64,000 bases of DNA from Candidatus Nitrososphaera evergladensis SR1 (GTDB lineage Archaea > Thermoproteota > Nitrososphaeria > Nitrososphaerales > Nitrososphaeraceae): contig NZ_CP007174.1 of NCBI RefSeq assembly GCF_000730285.1, forward strand, positions 2,666,001 to 2,730,000. The letters run 5' to 3'. The notes beneath the pieces were generated by a model. The model had not been told where the DNA came from. It did no database searches and was given only the letters and a program-made list of their open reading frames with translations. Both the position numbers and the translations under genes were made by a program. This document shows positions 4,286-61,900 of this stretch, piece by piece; positions within the stretch are counted from its first letter, which is position 1, and every line of letters begins with the position of its first letter.

Positions 4286-5309
4286 GCAGGATCTTGCCAG
4301 CGTGCAGGCCCTTTTCCATCCTGTCCTGCGCCTGCCCCGCCTCCTTTAACGGAAACACGGAATCGATGACAGGCTTGATCTTCTTTGCCTGCACGAGCCT
4401 TAGCAGTTCTACAAGCTGCGCCTTTGTCCCCAATAGTGCGCCCGTCATCGCTACCTGCTTGCTGTAAAACATCCGTACGGGGACCGTCGCGTCGTTTCCG
4501 GACGTCATGCCGCAGACTGCCATCCTGCCACCCGGCATTAGAGATGCAATGCTTGTCTGCCAGGTCGCCGCGCCCACGTGGTCGATGACAATGTCCACTC
4601 CTTTGCCACCAAGCCTGGCAAATACCTCGCCGGCGATGTCCTTTGTCTCGCTTCTGTCGATGACGTGGTGGGCGCCAAGCTTTTTGCCAAATTTCGCTTT
4701 TTCAGGCCCCGCCGCTGTCGTGATGATTGTCGAGACGCCCATCGCGCGGGCAAGCTGGATAGTGGCCATGCCGACCCCGCTTGCCGCGCCGTACACAAGG
4801 AGCGATTTTCCCTTTTTCGCACTGTTTGCAGACAGCATGTTCCACGCCGTAAGATACGAGACTGCAAGCGTCGCCGCGGTCTTCAAATCTATTTTCATCT
4901 TGCCAAGCCGGACGACGTTTCGTGCCGGCACCGCCACCTGCGCTGCATACCCGCCGTTATAGTCGCTTGTCCCGCCAATGATTGCAAACTGGCTGCAGAG
5001 GTTTTCCCGCCCTGCTTTGCAGTGCGTGCATTTTCCGCAGCTGGCGCCGGGGTACACCATGACGCGCTCGCCGGCATCAAAACCGGCCGCGCTTTTCTTT
5101 ACGGCGCCTACAATGTCGCAGCCGCATATGTGCGGCAGCCGGATCTTTTTGCCGGTTATCCCCATCCTCGTCCAGATGTCGAGATGATTCACGCCGCAAT
5201 ACTCTACATCGATTACGACCTGCCCCTTTGCCGGCTCGGGTTCCGGGAAATCCTCATACCTCAACATGTCCACCGGCCCGTGCTGGTAAAAGGGCACCGC
5301 CTTCATCAT
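4269..5309 (-). CDS. Zinc-dependent MDR alcohol dehydrogenase
   Basis: 346-residue medium-chain dehydrogenase/reductase. Catalytic zinc ligands are visible in YCGVNHLD (C, near 38), the GCD stretch and GERVMVYPG. A full structural-zinc lobe of four cysteines occurs around residues 92-106 (CGKCTHCKAGRENLC). The NAD(P)-binding GAASGVGMATIQLA follows near 175. Substrate unknown. Its ATG overlaps the valS stop (ATGA), so it is translated from the valS message. The link to ValRS is positional, not obviously metabolic. Confidence 0.9.
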   Translation of the reverse strand: MMKAVPFYQHGPVDMLRYEDFPEPEPAKGQVVIDVEYCGVNHLDIWTRMGITGKKIRLPHICGCDIVGAVKKSAAGFDAGERVMVYPGASCGKCTHCKAGRENLCSQFAIIGGTSDYNGGYAAQVAVPARNVVRLGKMKIDLKTAATLAVSYLTAWNMLSANSAKKGKSLLVYGAASGVGMATIQLARAMGVSTIITTAAGPEKAKFGKKLGAHHVIDRSETKDIAGEVFARLGGKGVDIVIDHVGAATWQTSIASLMPGGRMAVCGMTSGNDATVPVRMFYSKQVAMTGALLGTKAQLVELLRLVQAKKIKPVIDSVFPLKEAGQAQDRMEKGLHAGKILLNCRR

Positions 5310-7666
5310 TTTGAGATCAGGTTGTGCATCGATACGAGGTCGGCTGCAAACGGCTCTAGTTCTTCTGGCACTGCAATTTCAATCGGGTCCTTGAGCGACA
5401 TCGGCTTGCCTGTCCCTTTTGATATTGTCTCTTTCTTTTTGTTCCATACCTGCGAGTTAAAGTCAGTTATCGCTTTGGTGTATTTTGCAAATTCCAGGTC
5501 CTGCTCTTCGATAACAGAAGGCAGCTGCTGGTGGTGTATGCTACTTTTTTCCAGATACATCTTGACCCACAGCTCCTCGGAAATGAACGGAGTCATTGGC
5601 GCAAGCAAGAGCAGGATCGTAGAAAACACCTTGTGAAGTGTATAGAGCGCCGAGGCGTGGCCCTGCTGGCTTGGGTCGTACGCCCTTCCCTTCACCATCT
5701 CGATATAGTGGGCGGCAAAGACGTTCCACGTAAAGTCGCGGATCGCATTTGCAGGCACGAAAAAGTTGTATTCGTCATAGCCGCGCCTGCATTCCTGTAC
5801 GAGCTTGGCAAGCTCGGCAAGTATCCACCTGTCAGATGCTTCTAAATTCGCCGGCTTGTCCTTTACCACGTCAAACGAAGAGAGGAACCTGCCCACGTTC
5901 CACAGCTTTGACAGGAACTTTTGCGAGCTGGCTATGCGCTGCTCCGAGCAGCGAAAGTCGTAGCCGAGGTTGGCCTCGCTTGCCGACCAGAACCGGAATG
6001 TGTCTGCGCCGTACTGCTGGATTATCGGGAACGGGTCGATGACGTTGCCCTTGCTCTTGCTCATTTTTTCTCCCTTTTCGTCGACGCCGTAACCCATTAT
6101 CCACGCGTCGGTCCAGGGCATCTTGCCCGTCAGCTGCACGCAGCGCAGCATCGTGTAGTGGAGCCACGTCCTTATGATGTCCTTGGCCTGCGGCCGGACG
6201 GCCGTCGGGTACGCATAATTAAACAGCTTTTGATCGTTGTTGAATTTTGTCACGTAGAGCGGGCTTATCGACGAGTCCATCCACGTGTCAAACGTCCTGT
6301 CTTCGCCCGTGAATTCCGCGTGGCCGCATTTTGGGCACTTTTCAAAGGGCGGGCTCTCCTTCCAGGGGCGATAGTATCTTCCCGGCTCTGGCAGGAGCGG
6401 CGCCTTGCAAGAGTTGCAGTACCATATTGGTATCTCGGTGCCGTAAAAGCGCCTGCGGGACACCGGCCAGTCGATTGCCACAGAGTCAAGCCAGTTGAGC
6501 AGGATCTGCCGGTGCATCTCGGGGTGGAATTTCAACTGCATCGCCAGTTCGCGCAGCTGCGGCACATATTCAAGCTGCTTGACGTAATAATCGTGCAACG
6601 GGATTATCTCTATAGGGGTCTTGCTTCGCTCACAGAGGGGCGTCCTGTGCATGATGCTTTCTTCCTTTTCCACAAGGTTTGCAGCCTTTAGGTCTTCAAT
6701 CACCTTGGTGCGCGCCTGGTTGACGCGAAGGCCGGCGTACGCGCCTGCCGCTTCTGTCGTTACGCCGTTTTCGTTGAGCGCCACTATCTCCTTCAATCCC
6801 AGTTCCCGGAACACCTGCACGTCGTTCTGGTCGCCATAGCTGCACACCATCACGGCGCCAGAGCCAAACTCTGGTTTTGCAGAGTGGTGCGTCTTTATAG
6901 GCACCTCCCTGTTGAACAAGGGCAGGACGACGCTCTTGCCCTGATAGTCAAGGTAGCGCTCGTCCTCCGGGTTTACAATCACTGCCTGGCACGCAAAGAG
7001 GAGCTCCGGCCTTGTCGACGCGATTACAATCGAATCGCCAGAGCCTGCGACCTGAAACTTCATGTGCACGAGTTTTGTCGGCAGGTCGTCGTAGATTATC
7101 TCGGCGTCTGCAATCGTTGTGCCGCAGTCGGGGCAATAGTTGTTGGGCCTGTTTGCCAGGTACACGAGCCCGCGCTTCCACAGCTCAATAAAGGTGGCCT
7201 GCGTAAGCGCACGGTATTCGTCAGAGTCGGTGCGGTAGTAACGTGCAAAGTCGCCGGAAAGCCCCATGTTCTTCATTATCTGGAGCATCTCTGCTTCGAG
7301 GTCGTCAAGCGCGCCCTTGCACAGGTCGAGGAACTTTTGACGGTCCATCTGGCGCATTCGCACCTTGTACTTTTTCTCGGTGTAGATTTCCACCGGCAGG
7401 CCGTTTCGGTCAATGCCTATTGGAAACAGCACGTTCTTGCCGGACATCCTTGCAGTCCGGGCTATCATGTCTATCTGGGCGTAGTGAGCGGCGGCGCCAA
7501 TGTGCCACGGCTTGCCCGACGGGTACGGGGGCGGCGTGTCAATGACAAACGCCGGTTTATTTGAACTCGTTATCTCAAAGCGGTACGTGTTCTCGTCCTG
7601 CCACTTTTTCAGTATCGCGCTTTCAATCTCGTGGTTCCACGACTTGGTCTCTATCTTGGGTTCCAT
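5306..7666 (-). CDS. valS: Valyl-tRNA synthetase
   Basis: Class Ia synthetase charging tRNA-Val. 786 residues, typical of compact archaeal ValRS. The HIGH box is HIGA at residue 55, and KMSKSKGN is at 534. The CP1 editing domain has STRPELL and GSGAVMVCSYGDQNDV, a pattern characteristic of archaeal ValRS rather than IleRS or LeuRS. FDTWMDSSISPLY precedes KMSKS. Zinc-type CxxC pairs occur in the connective region (YCPDCG; CNSC...CPKCG). The alcohol dehydrogenase gene follows with a 4-base overlap. An ATG start at 7666 fits the N-terminus. Confidence 0.93.
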   Translation of the reverse strand: MEPKIETKSWNHEIESAILKKWQDENTYRFEITSSNKPAFVIDTPPPYPSGKPWHIGAAAHYAQIDMIARTARMSGKNVLFPIGIDRNGLPVEIYTEKKYKVRMRQMDRQKFLDLCKGALDDLEAEMLQIMKNMGLSGDFARYYRTDSDEYRALTQATFIELWKRGLVYLANRPNNYCPDCGTTIADAEIIYDDLPTKLVHMKFQVAGSGDSIVIASTRPELLFACQAVIVNPEDERYLDYQGKSVVLPLFNREVPIKTHHSAKPEFGSGAVMVCSYGDQNDVQVFRELGLKEIVALNENGVTTEAAGAYAGLRVNQARTKVIEDLKAANLVEKEESIMHRTPLCERSKTPIEIIPLHDYYVKQLEYVPQLRELAMQLKFHPEMHRQILLNWLDSVAIDWPVSRRRFYGTEIPIWYCNSCKAPLLPEPGRYYRPWKESPPFEKCPKCGHAEFTGEDRTFDTWMDSSISPLYVTKFNNDQKLFNYAYPTAVRPQAKDIIRTWLHYTMLRCVQLTGKMPWTDAWIMGYGVDEKGEKMSKSKGNVIDPFPIIQQYGADTFRFWSASEANLGYDFRCSEQRIASSQKFLSKLWNVGRFLSSFDVVKDKPANLEASDRWILAELAKLVQECRRGYDEYNFFVPANAIRDFTWNVFAAHYIEMVKGRAYDPSQQGHASALYTLHKVFSTILLLLAPMTPFISEELWVKMYLEKSSIHHQQLPSVIEEQDLEFAKYTKAITDFNSQVWNKKKETISKGTGKPMSLKDPIEIAVPEELEPFAADLVSMHNLISK

Positions 7667-57085: not shown

Positions 57086-59059
57086 TTAATTACTTTTGCT
57101 GCTAGTACTACCTTTGGAGGCAAACGAGATTTTCGACTGGCCTGTTGGAAGGGAGCGCACAAAGTCGTCCAGGCTGATGCGCTTTATCGTCTCTGCAAGT
57201 TCTTCGTTGTCGCCGGCGGCAGCGGACACGAGCGTGGCCTTGGCCTTTTTGGCCGCGTTCATAGGGTCAAGCCCGCCCTGCAAAAGGACTGCGTACACCA
57301 GTGACCTCTTTTTTACCGCCTCTTCCGGCCCACACACCAGCGCCTCCCTTTCGTTTATCAGCTCGATGCCGATTGCAAGGCGGACTTCGACGCCCTTGAC
57401 GTAGCTGCGCTTGCCCTCTATCACGAACGAGCCCTTGGGCAGGAACTGGCCCGTGGGCGCGCCCTTTTTTATCTGGTCCGGAAAAACCCAGTACGCGTCG
57501 GCGCTTGACAGGCCGTCCTTCCAGGCCCTGCTAAACGACACGGTTGCCTGCGCGACCTGTACGAGCGACTGCTCCATCTTGCCTTCCCTTGCCGGCGCAG
57601 CGGCATTTTTCACGATGAAAAACGGCGAGCCGTGCACCTCGGCGTGAAAGACAATGTCGTCTTCTGTCAGGTGCTTGCGCACGAGGGCAGAGTTGGACGA
57701 CGCGTCGCGCCCGCCAATCGCAAGCAGGCCGTCGCTTGTCACAAACCACCTGTAGCGCTCGTACCATTCCTTTGCGGCCTGCTTTTGCACCACCATCTTT
57801 TTGTGGATGGCAGCGGTCTGGCCGCGCAGCCTCTCGATCTGCGCAAGGAGCTTTGAACGTGCCTCCTCTATCGAGGCGTTGCCCCGTTCCATCTCTTTTG
57901 CGCGGGCAAAAAGCATAGAGCTTAGTTTTGCAAGGTTCTGCTGGGCCTCGATGTTTTCGCCTGCTACCTGCACGTATTTTACGCCCTTTTCCGTGACAAG
58001 AGAAGCCGAGTTTGCCGCAAGGACGCCCTTGATCGCGTCGTCGGCGGGGTTTGAATATGAAACTGCCATCAATTCGCCGGCAAGCTTGCGTATTGCCGCC
58101 GCTTTTTGCAACACCTCCTCCTTGGCCTTGTTCTGCTCCGCAAGGTCGTGCTCCAGCACGGCTATCTGCCTGTCGATTTCTATCGTCCTTGAGCTGCGGC
58201 CGATGTCCAGAATCTCGTTGCTGAGCACCTCGTCAAGCGCCTCCATGTAGGTGGGCGCCTTTTTCACCTCCAGTTTTTGGGCTTCCTGCGTGACTATTGG
58301 GAGTGCGTCGACAGGTTTTTCACCTTGCATGATGACCACCGGCTCGTGGTTTCTGCCCGCGCTGATGTCGTCAACAAGCGACTTTATGGTAGAAAATATC
58401 CTGCCCACCTCTTCGTCTGCCAGCTGGCCTGCCTGCCTTGAAGGCTCGATGCCTGCCCTCTTGGCAACCTCCTCCACGAACTTTTTGGGCATCGAAAGCC
58501 CCCTGCCTATCCAGCGCAGAACGTCGAGGTTTTTCGCTTCGTTGCGCAATGCAAGCATCTGCTCAAGCGACAGCGCAAAGACATCAACCCCCCTCTGCGG
58601 AGGAAACGCGTACCTAAGGCCGACTTTGAGCGTGCGGTGGCGCACCTCTATGGGCCGCAGTATGGCAAGCATCTGCATCTTTTCGTCGCATATTATGATG
58701 TTGCCGTCGCCAAAGAACTCGCACACCACCACTCGCGCCTGCCCGTCAAGCCGGCGCAGCCTTAACGTGGCTATGCGCTCGCTTCCGGCCTGCTCCAGCG
58801 ACTCCACGCGGGCCCGCTCCAGCTCCGCAATTGCGGCTCGCTCCAGCGAATTGTCCTCCACGGGCTTGAACTTTAGCTTTGTAATCCAGATGCCCCTTGC
58901 CGACAAAACCAGCATGATGTCTTCCTGCGTGGGGTGGTGCAGGCGCAAAAGGAGCGAGTCTTTGGTCACGGCGTTTACCGCAGAAATGTAATGCCCGGAG
59001 GTCACCCTAGCGCCTATCTCGTTTACAAGGTAGCGCAGTTCGACTCCGGAAAGCTCCAT
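57086..59059 (-). CDS. rqcH: RqcH/NFACT ribosome-rescue protein
   Basis: 657 residues; acts on stalled large ribosomal subunits, recruiting tRNA-Ala and adding C-terminal tails. NFACT-N domain begins MELSGVELRYLVNEIGARVT, HhH region follows (LSLEQMLALRNEAKNLDVLR, MPKKFVEEVAKRAGIEPS), then coiled coil (near 300-420) and NFACT-R with RWFVTSDGLLAIGGRDASSN and DIVFHAEVHGSPFFIVKN. Archaea keep it without the bacterial partner proteins. The start is clear (leading Met then family signature). Confidence 0.95.
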   Translation of the reverse strand: MELSGVELRYLVNEIGARVTSGHYISAVNAVTKDSLLLRLHHPTQEDIMLVLSARGIWITKLKFKPVEDNSLERAAIAELERARVESLEQAGSERIATLRLRRLDGQARVVVCEFFGDGNIIICDEKMQMLAILRPIEVRHRTLKVGLRYAFPPQRGVDVFALSLEQMLALRNEAKNLDVLRWIGRGLSMPKKFVEEVAKRAGIEPSRQAGQLADEEVGRIFSTIKSLVDDISAGRNHEPVVIMQGEKPVDALPIVTQEAQKLEVKKAPTYMEALDEVLSNEILDIGRSSRTIEIDRQIAVLEHDLAEQNKAKEEVLQKAAAIRKLAGELMAVSYSNPADDAIKGVLAANSASLVTEKGVKYVQVAGENIEAQQNLAKLSSMLFARAKEMERGNASIEEARSKLLAQIERLRGQTAAIHKKMVVQKQAAKEWYERYRWFVTSDGLLAIGGRDASSNSALVRKHLTEDDIVFHAEVHGSPFFIVKNAAAPAREGKMEQSLVQVAQATVSFSRAWKDGLSSADAYWVFPDQIKKGAPTGQFLPKGSFVIEGKRSYVKGVEVRLAIGIELINEREALVCGPEEAVKKRSLVYAVLLQGGLDPMNAAKKAKATLVSAAAGDNEELAETIKRISLDDFVRSLPTGQSKISFASKGSTSSKSN

Positions 59060-59169
59060 GCGTGTGTACGCTCAATCGTAAAGCAGGCGAGGCACAATAT
59101 TAGTCCTCGGATGCCACACACACATGCGCCAAGCAAGGCTTAAATTAATTCGGAACGTGGCTTGTCTCT

Positions 59170-59439
59170 GTGTCAGGCGGCAGCAGTAGTGGCAGCGACG
59201 ACAGCGGCAAGAACCCGGCGAACATAATCGGCAGGGTGTACGCAGTGAGCACTCTTCTTGCCGTGATAATCGCGGTGCCGGCGGTGGTGGTTGCCGTAAT
59301 TACGCACTTTGTGTTCCAGACTGACATTGTAGTGACGCTTGCCGCGTCGCTCATCGCGCTTTTCATATCGATGGGGTTTGGCATCAGGCTTGCCAAGCGC
59401 TTTGTGAGGGCGCCTCAAAAAGAAGAAAAAGACGGCTAA
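59170..59439 (+). CDS. 89-residue two-helix membrane protein
   Basis: GTG 59170. Gly/Ser/Asp-rich N-terminus, helices VYAVSTLLAVIIAVPAVVVAV (about 23-43) and IVVTLAASLIALFISMGFGI (about 53-72), and a basic tail. Divergent from rqcH. Role unknown. Confidence 0.6.
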   Translation: MSGGSSSGSDDSGKNPANIIGRVYAVSTLLAVIIAVPAVVVAVITHFVFQTDIVVTLAASLIALFISMGFGIRLAKRFVRAPQKEEKDG

Positions 59440-59470
59440 ATTTATGTACGATGCCGTATTATTTGCTCTC

Positions 59471-60697
59471 ATGATGAACAATAGCAATAGTGGAAATGCC
59501 ACGTTTTTTGTGCGAATAAATGGCGTGCTGCCTGATACCAACAATGGGGCAACAACAGCAGCAGGGGAAGGAAAAGAGGCGCACACCTCGATCTCGGTTT
59601 TTTCAGACGGCTTTCATCTGTTGGTTGACGCCGGCGGCGGGGTGGCTGACAGCGTAAAAAAGGGCGCGTCGGATCTTGGCTACAAAGAGGAGCCGGACGC
59701 AATACTGGTAACGCACGGCAGGCGCGAGCACACAATCGATCTTGCTTCTTTTTCAAAAAGCAAGATATTCTGCACAAGCGAGTGCGCAGGCCAGATTGCG
59801 AAGGAATCGCCGCAGATAGACAAGTCGCGCTTTGCAAACATTGTCCCCGGCCAGCCGTTTGAGGCAGGCCCGTTTTCCATAGTGCCTGTGGCGGCGGACA
59901 ATGCAGGCGACAGCCCGGGTTTTCCCGGCTCTGTCATCTATGTGATTCGCGCCGGCGACAGAAAGGTTATCGCAGGGTGGGACTTTCTCAGCCTGCAAAA
60001 CGCAAGTGCCGACCTTATGTGGAATCCCGACCTTGTAGTGCTTGGTACAGAGACGTACAACGACCACCCTTCTACAGGCATGATTTCAGTTACGCAGGCG
60101 TACCACACGGTCAAGACCTGGAACGCCAAGGACTGCTACGTCCTCCACTACAGCGGCGAAAAAGACAAAGAAGACGCCAAGAACCAGTGGCACAGAGGGC
60201 CGGCTGGACCGCTGCCGCCAGACGAACTGCAAAAGACAATAGATGACTATTTGCGCATGTCAGGTCTGGACGGCAAGATCAGCATCAAAGTTGCGCGGCA
60301 GGCAATGGTATGGAGGCCAGCTGCTACTGTGGCCGCTGAAAGCGTGACAGAAGACGACAACAGCCCGGTAGGAAACAAGATCGAGATCGAGGCGCTTGAG
60401 AAATACGTGTTTGGAATTGAAAAGAGGCCTGACAACAAGCTGATGTTCGTGCTTGAAGACAGCATAAGCAGGCAGGAAAACGAGTTTGTCAACCCAAGAC
60501 GCAAGAGCAGCGATTCGCTGCATGCCGACCCGATAAAGAGCATGATGATGAAGGGACCGGAACTGGACCTGGTGGTGTCCGGCACGACGGTAAAGACGAG
60601 CATCATAAAAGGCAAAAAGCCGATGTTTGCCGGCGACATACGCGTAAGCGAGCGCGACGCAAAAAAGCTGTCAAGGTACATCCAGGAGAACTTTTAG
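59471..60697 (+). CDS. Metallo-beta-lactamase-fold protein with altered metal motif
   Basis: 408 residues from ATG 59471; ATG 59444 would add 9. The frame preserves the fold: FHLLVDAGGGVADS near 48-61, ILVTHGRREHTIDL near 80, KIFCTSECA, VIAGWDFLSL and CYVLHYSGEKD near 230. In place of HxHxDH it has HGRREH: one His becomes Arg and Asp becomes Glu. It may bind one metal or none. The C-terminal 130 residues are an unassigned domain (EYVFGIEKR-like segment, ISRQENEFVNP). A TATA-like AAATTTATG precedes at 59438. Confidence 0.75.
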   Translation: MMNNSNSGNATFFVRINGVLPDTNNGATTAAGEGKEAHTSISVFSDGFHLLVDAGGGVADSVKKGASDLGYKEEPDAILVTHGRREHTIDLASFSKSKIFCTSECAGQIAKESPQIDKSRFANIVPGQPFEAGPFSIVPVAADNAGDSPGFPGSVIYVIRAGDRKVIAGWDFLSLQNASADLMWNPDLVVLGTETYNDHPSTGMISVTQAYHTVKTWNAKDCYVLHYSGEKDKEDAKNQWHRGPAGPLPPDELQKTIDDYLRMSGLDGKISIKVARQAMVWRPAATVAAESVTEDDNSPVGNKIEIEALEKYVFGIEKRPDNKLMFVLEDSISRQENEFVNPRRKSSDSLHADPIKSMMMKGPELDLVVSGTTVKTSIIKGKKPMFAGDIRVSERDAKKLSRYIQENF

Positions 60698-60758
60698 GCT
60701 GGATTTATGGCGGCAGAAAATAAAAGATTACTAGGCGGCAAGCGAATCACCTATAGTT

Positions 60759-61586
60759 TTGTTGTCGTCGTCCAATACCGAGGGAGATAACGAGAAAGCT
60801 TACCTCACGGTCCATGAAGGCTATACGCGCGACATAGGCAGAGGAGTTGCAAGGATCGACCGCGAGTCGATGGATTCCGCAGGCATCGCAGAAGGCGACA
60901 TTATCCAGATAATAGGAAAGCGCAAAACCGTTGCCAGATGCCATGCGCTCTATCCTTCAGACGAGGGAAGAAGGAAGATTATCAGAATCGACGGCGTGAT
61001 ACGGGCAAATAGTGACACAAAAATAGGCGAGACCGTCCGCGTCAGAAAGATAATTGCTCCTAGTGCAAGCAGGGTTGTCGTCAGGCCACGCGAATCGATA
61101 CCGCCCTTAGACGAGCATTATCTAACTGACGCCCTCAACGGAGTGCCGCTTGTGCAAGGCGATAATTTTCTTGTTCCATACTTTGGAGGAAGGCTGGCTT
61201 TTCAAGCAGTCAGTACCGAGCCGCAAGGCGCAATAGTCGTAGACCAACAAACGATATTCTTTATCGCAAACGGAGAGAGCCTGATCAGATTTACCATAAC
61301 AGATCTTGTCAGGCAAGAAGAAAGGGGCCGTTCGTACCTGGTGCTAAAGTTCACCCTGCAAGGCTTTGGAGTTTCAGAGGCAGGAGAATTCCAAAGAAGG
61401 ATTGAGGAGGATTCAGACCTCGCAAAGACTTGCAATAGACACTTGGACGTGATAACAAAAGAGGTTGCAAAAAAGAACGACAACCCATCAACAACAATAG
61501 ACATCGTGACCGAGGCCAATCGCAAGGACATTCTCCGGGAAATCAAATTTGACATAATCAAAAAGATGATGAATCTGGAAAAATAG
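60759..61586 (+). CDS. Stand-alone Cdc48/VAT N-domain protein without AAA domains
   Basis: 275 residues from TTG 60759. About 10-90 reads as the double-psi beta-barrel of Cdc48 (LTVHEGYTRDIGRGVARIDR, GIAEGDIIQIIGKRKTVARC, RIDGVIRANSDTKIGETVRV). About 105-185 reads as the second N-subdomain (YLTDALNGVPLVQGDNFLVP; GAIVVDQQTIFFI). After that come a new alpha region and no Walker motifs. A free N-domain might act as adaptor or competitor for Cdc48. The match is from recognition of the family, not from a search. Confidence 0.72.
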   Translation: MLSSSNTEGDNEKAYLTVHEGYTRDIGRGVARIDRESMDSAGIAEGDIIQIIGKRKTVARCHALYPSDEGRRKIIRIDGVIRANSDTKIGETVRVRKIIAPSASRVVVRPRESIPPLDEHYLTDALNGVPLVQGDNFLVPYFGGRLAFQAVSTEPQGAIVVDQQTIFFIANGESLIRFTITDLVRQEERGRSYLVLKFTLQGFGVSEAGEFQRRIEEDSDLAKTCNRHLDVITKEVAKKNDNPSTTIDIVTEANRKDILREIKFDIIKKMMNLEK

Positions 61587-61621: not shown

Positions 61622-61900
61622 ATGGCCTTTAGCCTAAAACACGTCGCAATGCAGCTCTGTACGTGCACGTGGATAGAGATCATGACGGGCGCAGGGATAA
61701 CGCTGTACCTGCTGCTTTACATGCAGAACTATACCCTTGCCGCAGTCACGGTTGCGGCGTTTGGCCCGCTCATCGGCTTTCATTTTGCCATCGACAGGAT
61801 AAAGCCGGGCAAGGACGGATGGAAGAAGACTGAAAACAACAGGATAGTAAAGATAAGATCGCTTTCAGGAAGGCAAAGTTATCCCCTGCTTGGCAAGTAA
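61622..61900 (+). CDS. 92-residue two-helix membrane protein
   Basis: ATG 61622. Cys-containing start (LCTCTWIEI), helices MTGAGITLYLLLYMQNYTLAA (about 20-38) and VTVAAFGPLIGFHFAI (about 43-58), then a basic cytoplasmic tail (KDGWKKTENNRIVKIRSL). It begins 35 bases after the Cdc48N-like gene on the same strand. Confidence 0.6.
   Translation: MAFSLKHVAMQLCTCTWIEIMTGAGITLYLLLYMQNYTLAAVTVAAFGPLIGFHFAIDRIKPGKDGWKKTENNRIVKIRSLSGRQSYPLLGK

Follow-up and report, generated by a model that had tools for sequence, protein, structure and literature searches.

A Cdc48 N-domain protein without an ATPase domain in Candidatus Nitrososphaera evergladensis, and other motorless N-domain proteins of the Nitrososphaerales

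A Cdc48 N-domain joined to a new tail

The window analysed here is a 64-kb stretch of the genome of Candidatus Nitrososphaera evergladensis SR1, an ammonia-oxidising archaeon from soil, whose genome is assembled as one contig of 2.95 Mb. Near its right-hand end, between a gene for a metallo-beta-lactamase-fold (MBL) protein and a gene for a 92-aa protein, lies an open reading frame for a protein of 275 aa (Table 1). TTG is a plausible start for this frame because the first internal methionine falls at residue 38, within the barrel. An A/T-rich element, ataaaagatt, at 60720-60729 (30-39 nt 5' of the start) might be a promoter element.

Table 1. Features in and around the 275-aa open reading frame, in window positions.
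Feature	Position	Strand	Evidence or context
MBL-fold protein, 417 aa	59444..60697	+	Upstream neighbour, 61 bp before the ORF
CTGGA, left copy of a 5-bp direct repeat	60699..60703	+	Edge of the segment missing from G042
AAA-less Cdc48 N-domain protein, 275 aa	60759..61586	+	TTG start, uninterrupted frame, Pfam, tblastn
N1 subdomain, double-psi beta barrel (CDC48_N, residues 16-98)	60804..61052	+	Pfam PF02359, PDB sequence matches
N2 subdomain (CDC48_2, residues 119-169)	61113..61265	+	Pfam PF02933
New C-terminal tail (residues 172-275)	61272..61583	+	No relatives, coding-like codon usage, predicted fold
CTGGA, right copy	61575..61579	+	Within the last ORF codons; sequence shared with G042 starts about here
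92-aa protein	61622..61900	+	Downstream neighbour; G042 orthologue directly after the MBL gene

A preliminary description of this DNA had proposed that the frame encodes both subdomains of a Cdc48/VAT N-domain and no ATPase domain. Pfam bears out the first part, with CDC48_N at 82.6 bits (E 2.4e-23, cut-off 35.1) and CDC48_2 at 43.9 bits (E 1.8e-11, cut-off 22.4). The two subdomains occur in the same order and with the same p97-N/VAT-N fold as in Cdc48, VAT and p97, whereas a new tail, about 100 residues long, takes the place of the D1 and D2 AAA rings of those proteins. Consistent with this, the model for the whole Cdc48 AAA ATPase (TIGR01243) aligns at residues 16-166 only and reaches 101.7 bits, below its cut-off of 802.65; both N-subdomains are present, but the two AAA domains with their Walker A and B motifs are absent. 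Among natural sequences of solved structure, those closest to the protein are the barrel of an archaeal Cdc48 (7dg9, E 9.7e-14) and VAT-N (1cz4, E 1e-12). Identity to the N-domain of the genome's own 733-aa Cdc48, whose gene adjoins the window start on its outer side, is 59-60% (59% over 162 residues by tblastn).

The missing ATPase is not hidden nearby. With the 733-aa Cdc48 as a tblastn query, the other matches across the 64-kb window were all short and not significant (E 1.2-9.9), which confirms that the window holds no Cdc48-like AAA sequence and rules out a frameshifted or split Cdc48 at 60759-61586, the objection that the preliminary description had itself raised. By comparison, in data with one genome per species, a Walker A motif lay in the same ORF at all 80 Cdc48-type loci among the best 80 of 514 confirmed relatives. 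A viral or plasmid origin was also rejected: no relative was found among viral contigs, phages or PHROGs families, and in 15 of 52 plasmid records the matches covered the N-domain at below 60% identity, any named feature being an AAA ATPase.

Structure prediction likewise matched the VAT N-domain. An AlphaFold2 model, built on an alignment of 37 rows comprising the window sequence and related loci, gave block means of pLDDT of 58-87 over residues 11-170 and of 50 or less beyond. The top Foldseek matches were N-domains of p97/Cdc48 (3tiw_A, E 1.2e-7, TM by target 0.70) and VAT-N (1cz4, E 1.6e-7). A structural aligner applied to model residues 11-174 returned p97-N structures at Z 12.9 (3tiw_A; rmsd 3.3 Å, 146 aligned) and Z 13.9 (5e7p_A). 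The N-domain of PEX1 shares the double-psi fold (1wlf; Z 11.7, rmsd 3.2 Å, 145 aligned), but PEX1 carries AAA domains (PMC5070193 and PMC5447069, in the text available), which the 275-aa protein lacks.

The C-terminal part proved as new as the preliminary description had supposed, although somewhat longer, at about 100 rather than 90 residues. None of 69 other genomes of the family held a relative of the tail at E<=0.05, the lowest E among them being 0.0554, and it has no match in PDB sequences, Pfam or NCBIfam. It nevertheless looks coding-like: its codon score is 0.24 in frame, none of the other five frames exceeds -0.039, and a sequence of this composition would run for 100 codons with no stop with a probability of 0.0018. 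Modelled alone, as a single sequence of 108 residues, the tail reached a mean pLDDT of 67.5, which is moderate confidence, with a predicted secondary structure of beta-beta-alpha-(alpha)-beta-beta-alpha. Fold searches with this model gave no confident match, the best being E 0.03 in Foldseek and Z 8.2 in VIA (8fxi_C), followed in VIA by varied proteins at Z 7.7-6.5, including RpoL/Rpb11. Because values of Z 8.2 and below fall inside the noise stated for VIA, we dropped any fold assignment.

Age, selection and the orthologous site in the nearest genome

Between the 275-aa protein and the genome's Cdc48 N-domain, NG86 estimates are dN 0.33 and dS 2.3, the latter saturated, versus dS of 0.28-0.42 for the Cdc48, MBL and NFACT genes compared with those of the nearest genome, G042. 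The gene therefore long predates the split from G042, and with dN at 0.33 under a saturated dS, amino-acid changes are strongly under-represented. This pattern shows the mark of purifying selection, acting through most of the life of the gene. Against 36 Cdc48 N-domains, 68 of the 95 near-invariant columns (>=97% conserved) are kept and 27 are changed; at variable columns, 27 of 65 residues match the consensus and 47 of 65 match some row. The end branch carries 1.06 changes per column, compared with 0-0.03 for the main Cdc48-type rows. A tree grouped the protein with L107, L055 and a 370-aa protein of the same genome (the last two described below), with support of only 82/54 and on long branches. 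GC3 is 0.525 in the 275-aa gene and 0.456 in the 370-aa gene, versus 0.61-0.72 in the neighbours.

G042 has the same gene order (NFACT, TM89, MBL, TM92 and, at a greater distance, PyrI), and its spacing between MBL and TM92 is about 47 bp, as opposed to about 925 bp in the window, where it holds the 275-aa gene. The nearest genome thus lacks the gene at the orthologous site, where one CTGGA copy remains and where the right-hand sequence common to both genomes starts within the final ORF codons. Because G042 still has the 3' end of this old gene, loss there, probably by a deletion between the short repeats, is likelier than a fresh insertion or birth in the lineage of the window. Lateral entry of the gene is possible. 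The MBL neighbour is present in 9 of 18 genomes of the genus and stands in another context in the other genus genomes. In G042, every CDC48_N place that passes the Pfam cut-off is part of an open frame of 724-753 aa; this genome also carries an AAA-less protein below the cut-off (L244).

Motorless N-domain proteins in the same genome and in relatives

We grouped as AAA-less those proteins with CDC48_N above the cut-off, a complete ORF and no AAA sequence nearby, a description that applies in full to the 275-aa protein. Its genome contains seven CDC48_N places: five full Cdc48s in open frames of 733-749 aa, the 275-aa protein, and a protein of 370 aa that has CDC48_N, scores at the cut-off for CDC48_2 and is AAA-less. 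Like the 275-aa protein, this 370-aa protein and L055 (332 aa, from a related genus) carry CDC48_N with no AAA nearby; the tails of these two share homology (1 of 2000 shuffles scored as high) but show none detectable with the tail studied here. A likeness to the latter suggested by eye was rejected when 184 and 1780 of 2000 shuffles scored as high. Compared with six further AAA-less proteins, the tail was matched by 3 of 1000 shuffles for L245 and by 81-916 of 1000 for the others; the L245 result was not counted, as both compared pieces may extend into the end of the N-domain. When a profile built from the tails of the 370-aa protein and L055 was searched against 70 genomes, it found only those two and weak matches (best E 2.9e-4, with four internal stops), and the 370-aa tail alone, searched against 250 genomes of the order, matched besides itself only at E 0.005 or worse. 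At L156:2065-4148, the 370-aa gene and the 324-aa gene after it overlap by four bases, stop on start; the product of the latter has no Pfam match above the cut-off and is a candidate partner of the 370-aa protein.

To survey the order, every CDC48_N place was listed in 40 Nitrososphaerales genomes, a non-random sample picked mainly for completeness. Five of the 40 carried between them seven AAA-less frames that scored above the cut-off and were 173-224 aa long (two each in G026 and G198, one each in G144, G196 and G238), and four of the five are from a different family of the order. Among 70 genomes of the same family, where the AAA-less proteins found are a lower bound, we observed an N-domain with a tail (at least L055), nearly bare N-domains (at least L056, of 173 aa, L099, L101 and L107) and an N1 barrel with a conserved domain of about 128 aa attached to it (at least L057, L102, L103, L105, L108 and L109). 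Further nearly bare N-domains are L242 (159 aa) and L243 (171 aa), and L110 combines the N-domain with a cysteine-containing end. The fetched flanks of the AAA-less family proteins held no AAA sequence. The preliminary description had called for a check of other Thaumarchaeota: a single genome was found to have this exact architecture, and it is AAA-less N-domain proteins as such that recur across the order. They are a small recurrent group, of which the 275-aa protein is a real, intact and uncommon member.

Several candidates were left out of this group. L112 proved to be a frameshifted Cdc48; L104 (155 aa), which lacks the first half of the barrel, is probably a fragment; L100 is interrupted by a stop; and L106, from G026, is split over two frames. 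Short ORFs running off contig ends (in L058, L059, L061-L074 and L113-L116) were omitted. G026 has 11 CDC48_N places in all, and its broken N-domain copies (L106 and G026:C1:2484239-2484495) are signs of gene birth and death. Elsewhere, a shortened Cdc48 at L060:1920-3266 has a 449-aa open frame with the N-domain and apparently one AAA ring. A set of proteins of 346-451 aa from two families of the order joins a divergent CDC48_N-like start to a DUF5643-like C-terminus, both domains being below Pfam cut-offs (L244:2711-3751, L245:1945-3039, L247:2481-3836 and L241:7337-8545).

The domain of about 128 aa also exists as a stand-alone protein, with a match in 199 of 300 genomes of the order; a locus of the source genome, G000:C1:2382664-2383038, is listed with this observation. 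At L158 the stand-alone protein adjoins what we take to be a lysyl-tRNA synthetase. Its fusion to the N1 barrel links a conserved unknown protein to Cdc48.

Possible roles in trans and the neighbouring genes

Our preferred reading, to which we give about even odds, is that this old, intact N-domain paralogue would act, with no ATPase of its own, in trans on Cdc48 or on its clients. The role put forward in the preliminary description, that of an adaptor, competitor or substrate tether controlling a Cdc48-proteasome route, would fit this picture. The precedent for this reading is the N-domain of p97, a docking site for cofactors (PMC5447069, in the text available). The archaeal protein would retain part of the ligand binding of a Cdc48 N-domain, for clients or cofactors, while its tail might provide a second contact, with Cdc48 or another partner. 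It could then bring clients to the hexamer as an adaptor or withhold them as a competitor, and the former is the likelier because the tail has been kept. Domain identity, the N-domain fold, the missing AAA domains, the preferential retention of near-invariant columns, the coding-like tail, purifying selection and recurrence in relatives all support action in trans, and the recurrence suggests that motorless proteins may be separate regulators of Cdc48. Weighing against it are the restriction of the tail (0 of 69 family genomes), the absence of the gene from the G042 site, which makes it dispensable over that distance, and the change at 27 of 95 near-invariant positions. To these are added the lack of an SHP-like motif in a pattern scan of four AAA-less proteins and of any conserved gene neighbourhood tying the 275-aa gene to Cdc48 or the proteasome.

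A free N-domain could alternatively soak up the cofactors or clients of Cdc48 and lower its activity, with no productive delivery. The identity of 59-60% to the main Cdc48 N-domain would allow shared ligands, and the almost bare relatives L056, L242 and L243 fit such a decoy better than a tailed adaptor; the retention of a coding-like tail of about 100 residues, however, would be superfluous to a decoy, and with 27 near-invariant positions changed we consider this rather unlikely. The long end branch and the fusions of the barrel, in relatives, to the domain of about 128 aa (thaumarchaeal) or to the DUF5643-like domain (below the curated cut-off) would suit a barrel re-purposed to bind an unrelated ligand, with no connection to Cdc48. 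We think this unlikely, as near-invariant Cdc48 positions have been preferentially kept (68/95 versus 27/65). That the gene is a truncated, functionless Cdc48 on its way out is highly improbable: although its absence from the G042 site, its patchy distribution and the broken N-domain copy split over two frames (L106) might be read that way, the ORF is intact, dN/dS lies far below 1 with dS saturated, the new tail is coding-like, and several AAA-less relatives are intact.

The reading in which the protein acts in trans has a eukaryotic counterpart in Ufd1, a cofactor that handles modified substrates together with Cdc48 and that, as reportedly described by Park et al. in 2005, is likewise motorless with a Cdc48 N-domain-like fold. 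Ufd1, however, belongs to the UFD1 family, to which the 275-aa protein has no Pfam match at E<=1, and has an SHP box that binds the Cdc48 N-domain, of which we found none here. Because the 275-aa protein is closest to archaeal Cdc48 N-domains, it is likelier, on sequence grounds, to have arisen independently of Ufd1. The origin of Ufd1 may itself be from a Cdc48-type head, which would make the two a possible parallel. Park et al. 2005 appears in the reference list of PMC13356908, and a survey of the Cdc48 family classifies members by their AAA domains, with motorless members undiscussed in the text available (PMC5070193). Our literature search, which covered mostly open papers, in the text accessible, and no preprints, turned up neither an archaeal Cdc48 adaptor nor any study of AAA-less Cdc48 N-domain proteins in archaea. 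Motorless N-domain proteins with differing tails are named candidates for a part in how archaeal Cdc48 chooses its clients. A broader idea, which we hold only tentatively and think doubtful, is that ammonia-oxidising archaea possess a diverse, fast-changing repertoire of motorless Cdc48 N-domain proteins whose tails are interchangeable; these would form a Ufd1-like layer of Cdc48 cofactors, derived from the head of Cdc48 and separate from that of eukaryotes.

Directly upstream of the 275-aa ORF, at 57086-60697, lie the genes for NFACT (Rqc2-like) and the MBL-fold protein. As clues to function, these neighbours and the proximity of L101 described below were set aside as too weak. The MBL neighbour may deserve attention because in Haloferax an aRNase J complex is associated with SAMP1 and Cdc48a (PMC10470531, in the text available). 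In G041 the AAA-less L101 stands near the neighbour that the 275-aa gene has in the window, one gene, or 1.4 kb, from the MBL orthologue (L154:2281-2994 and 4360-5604); this proximity was not seen in G040, G029, G026, G028 or G031.
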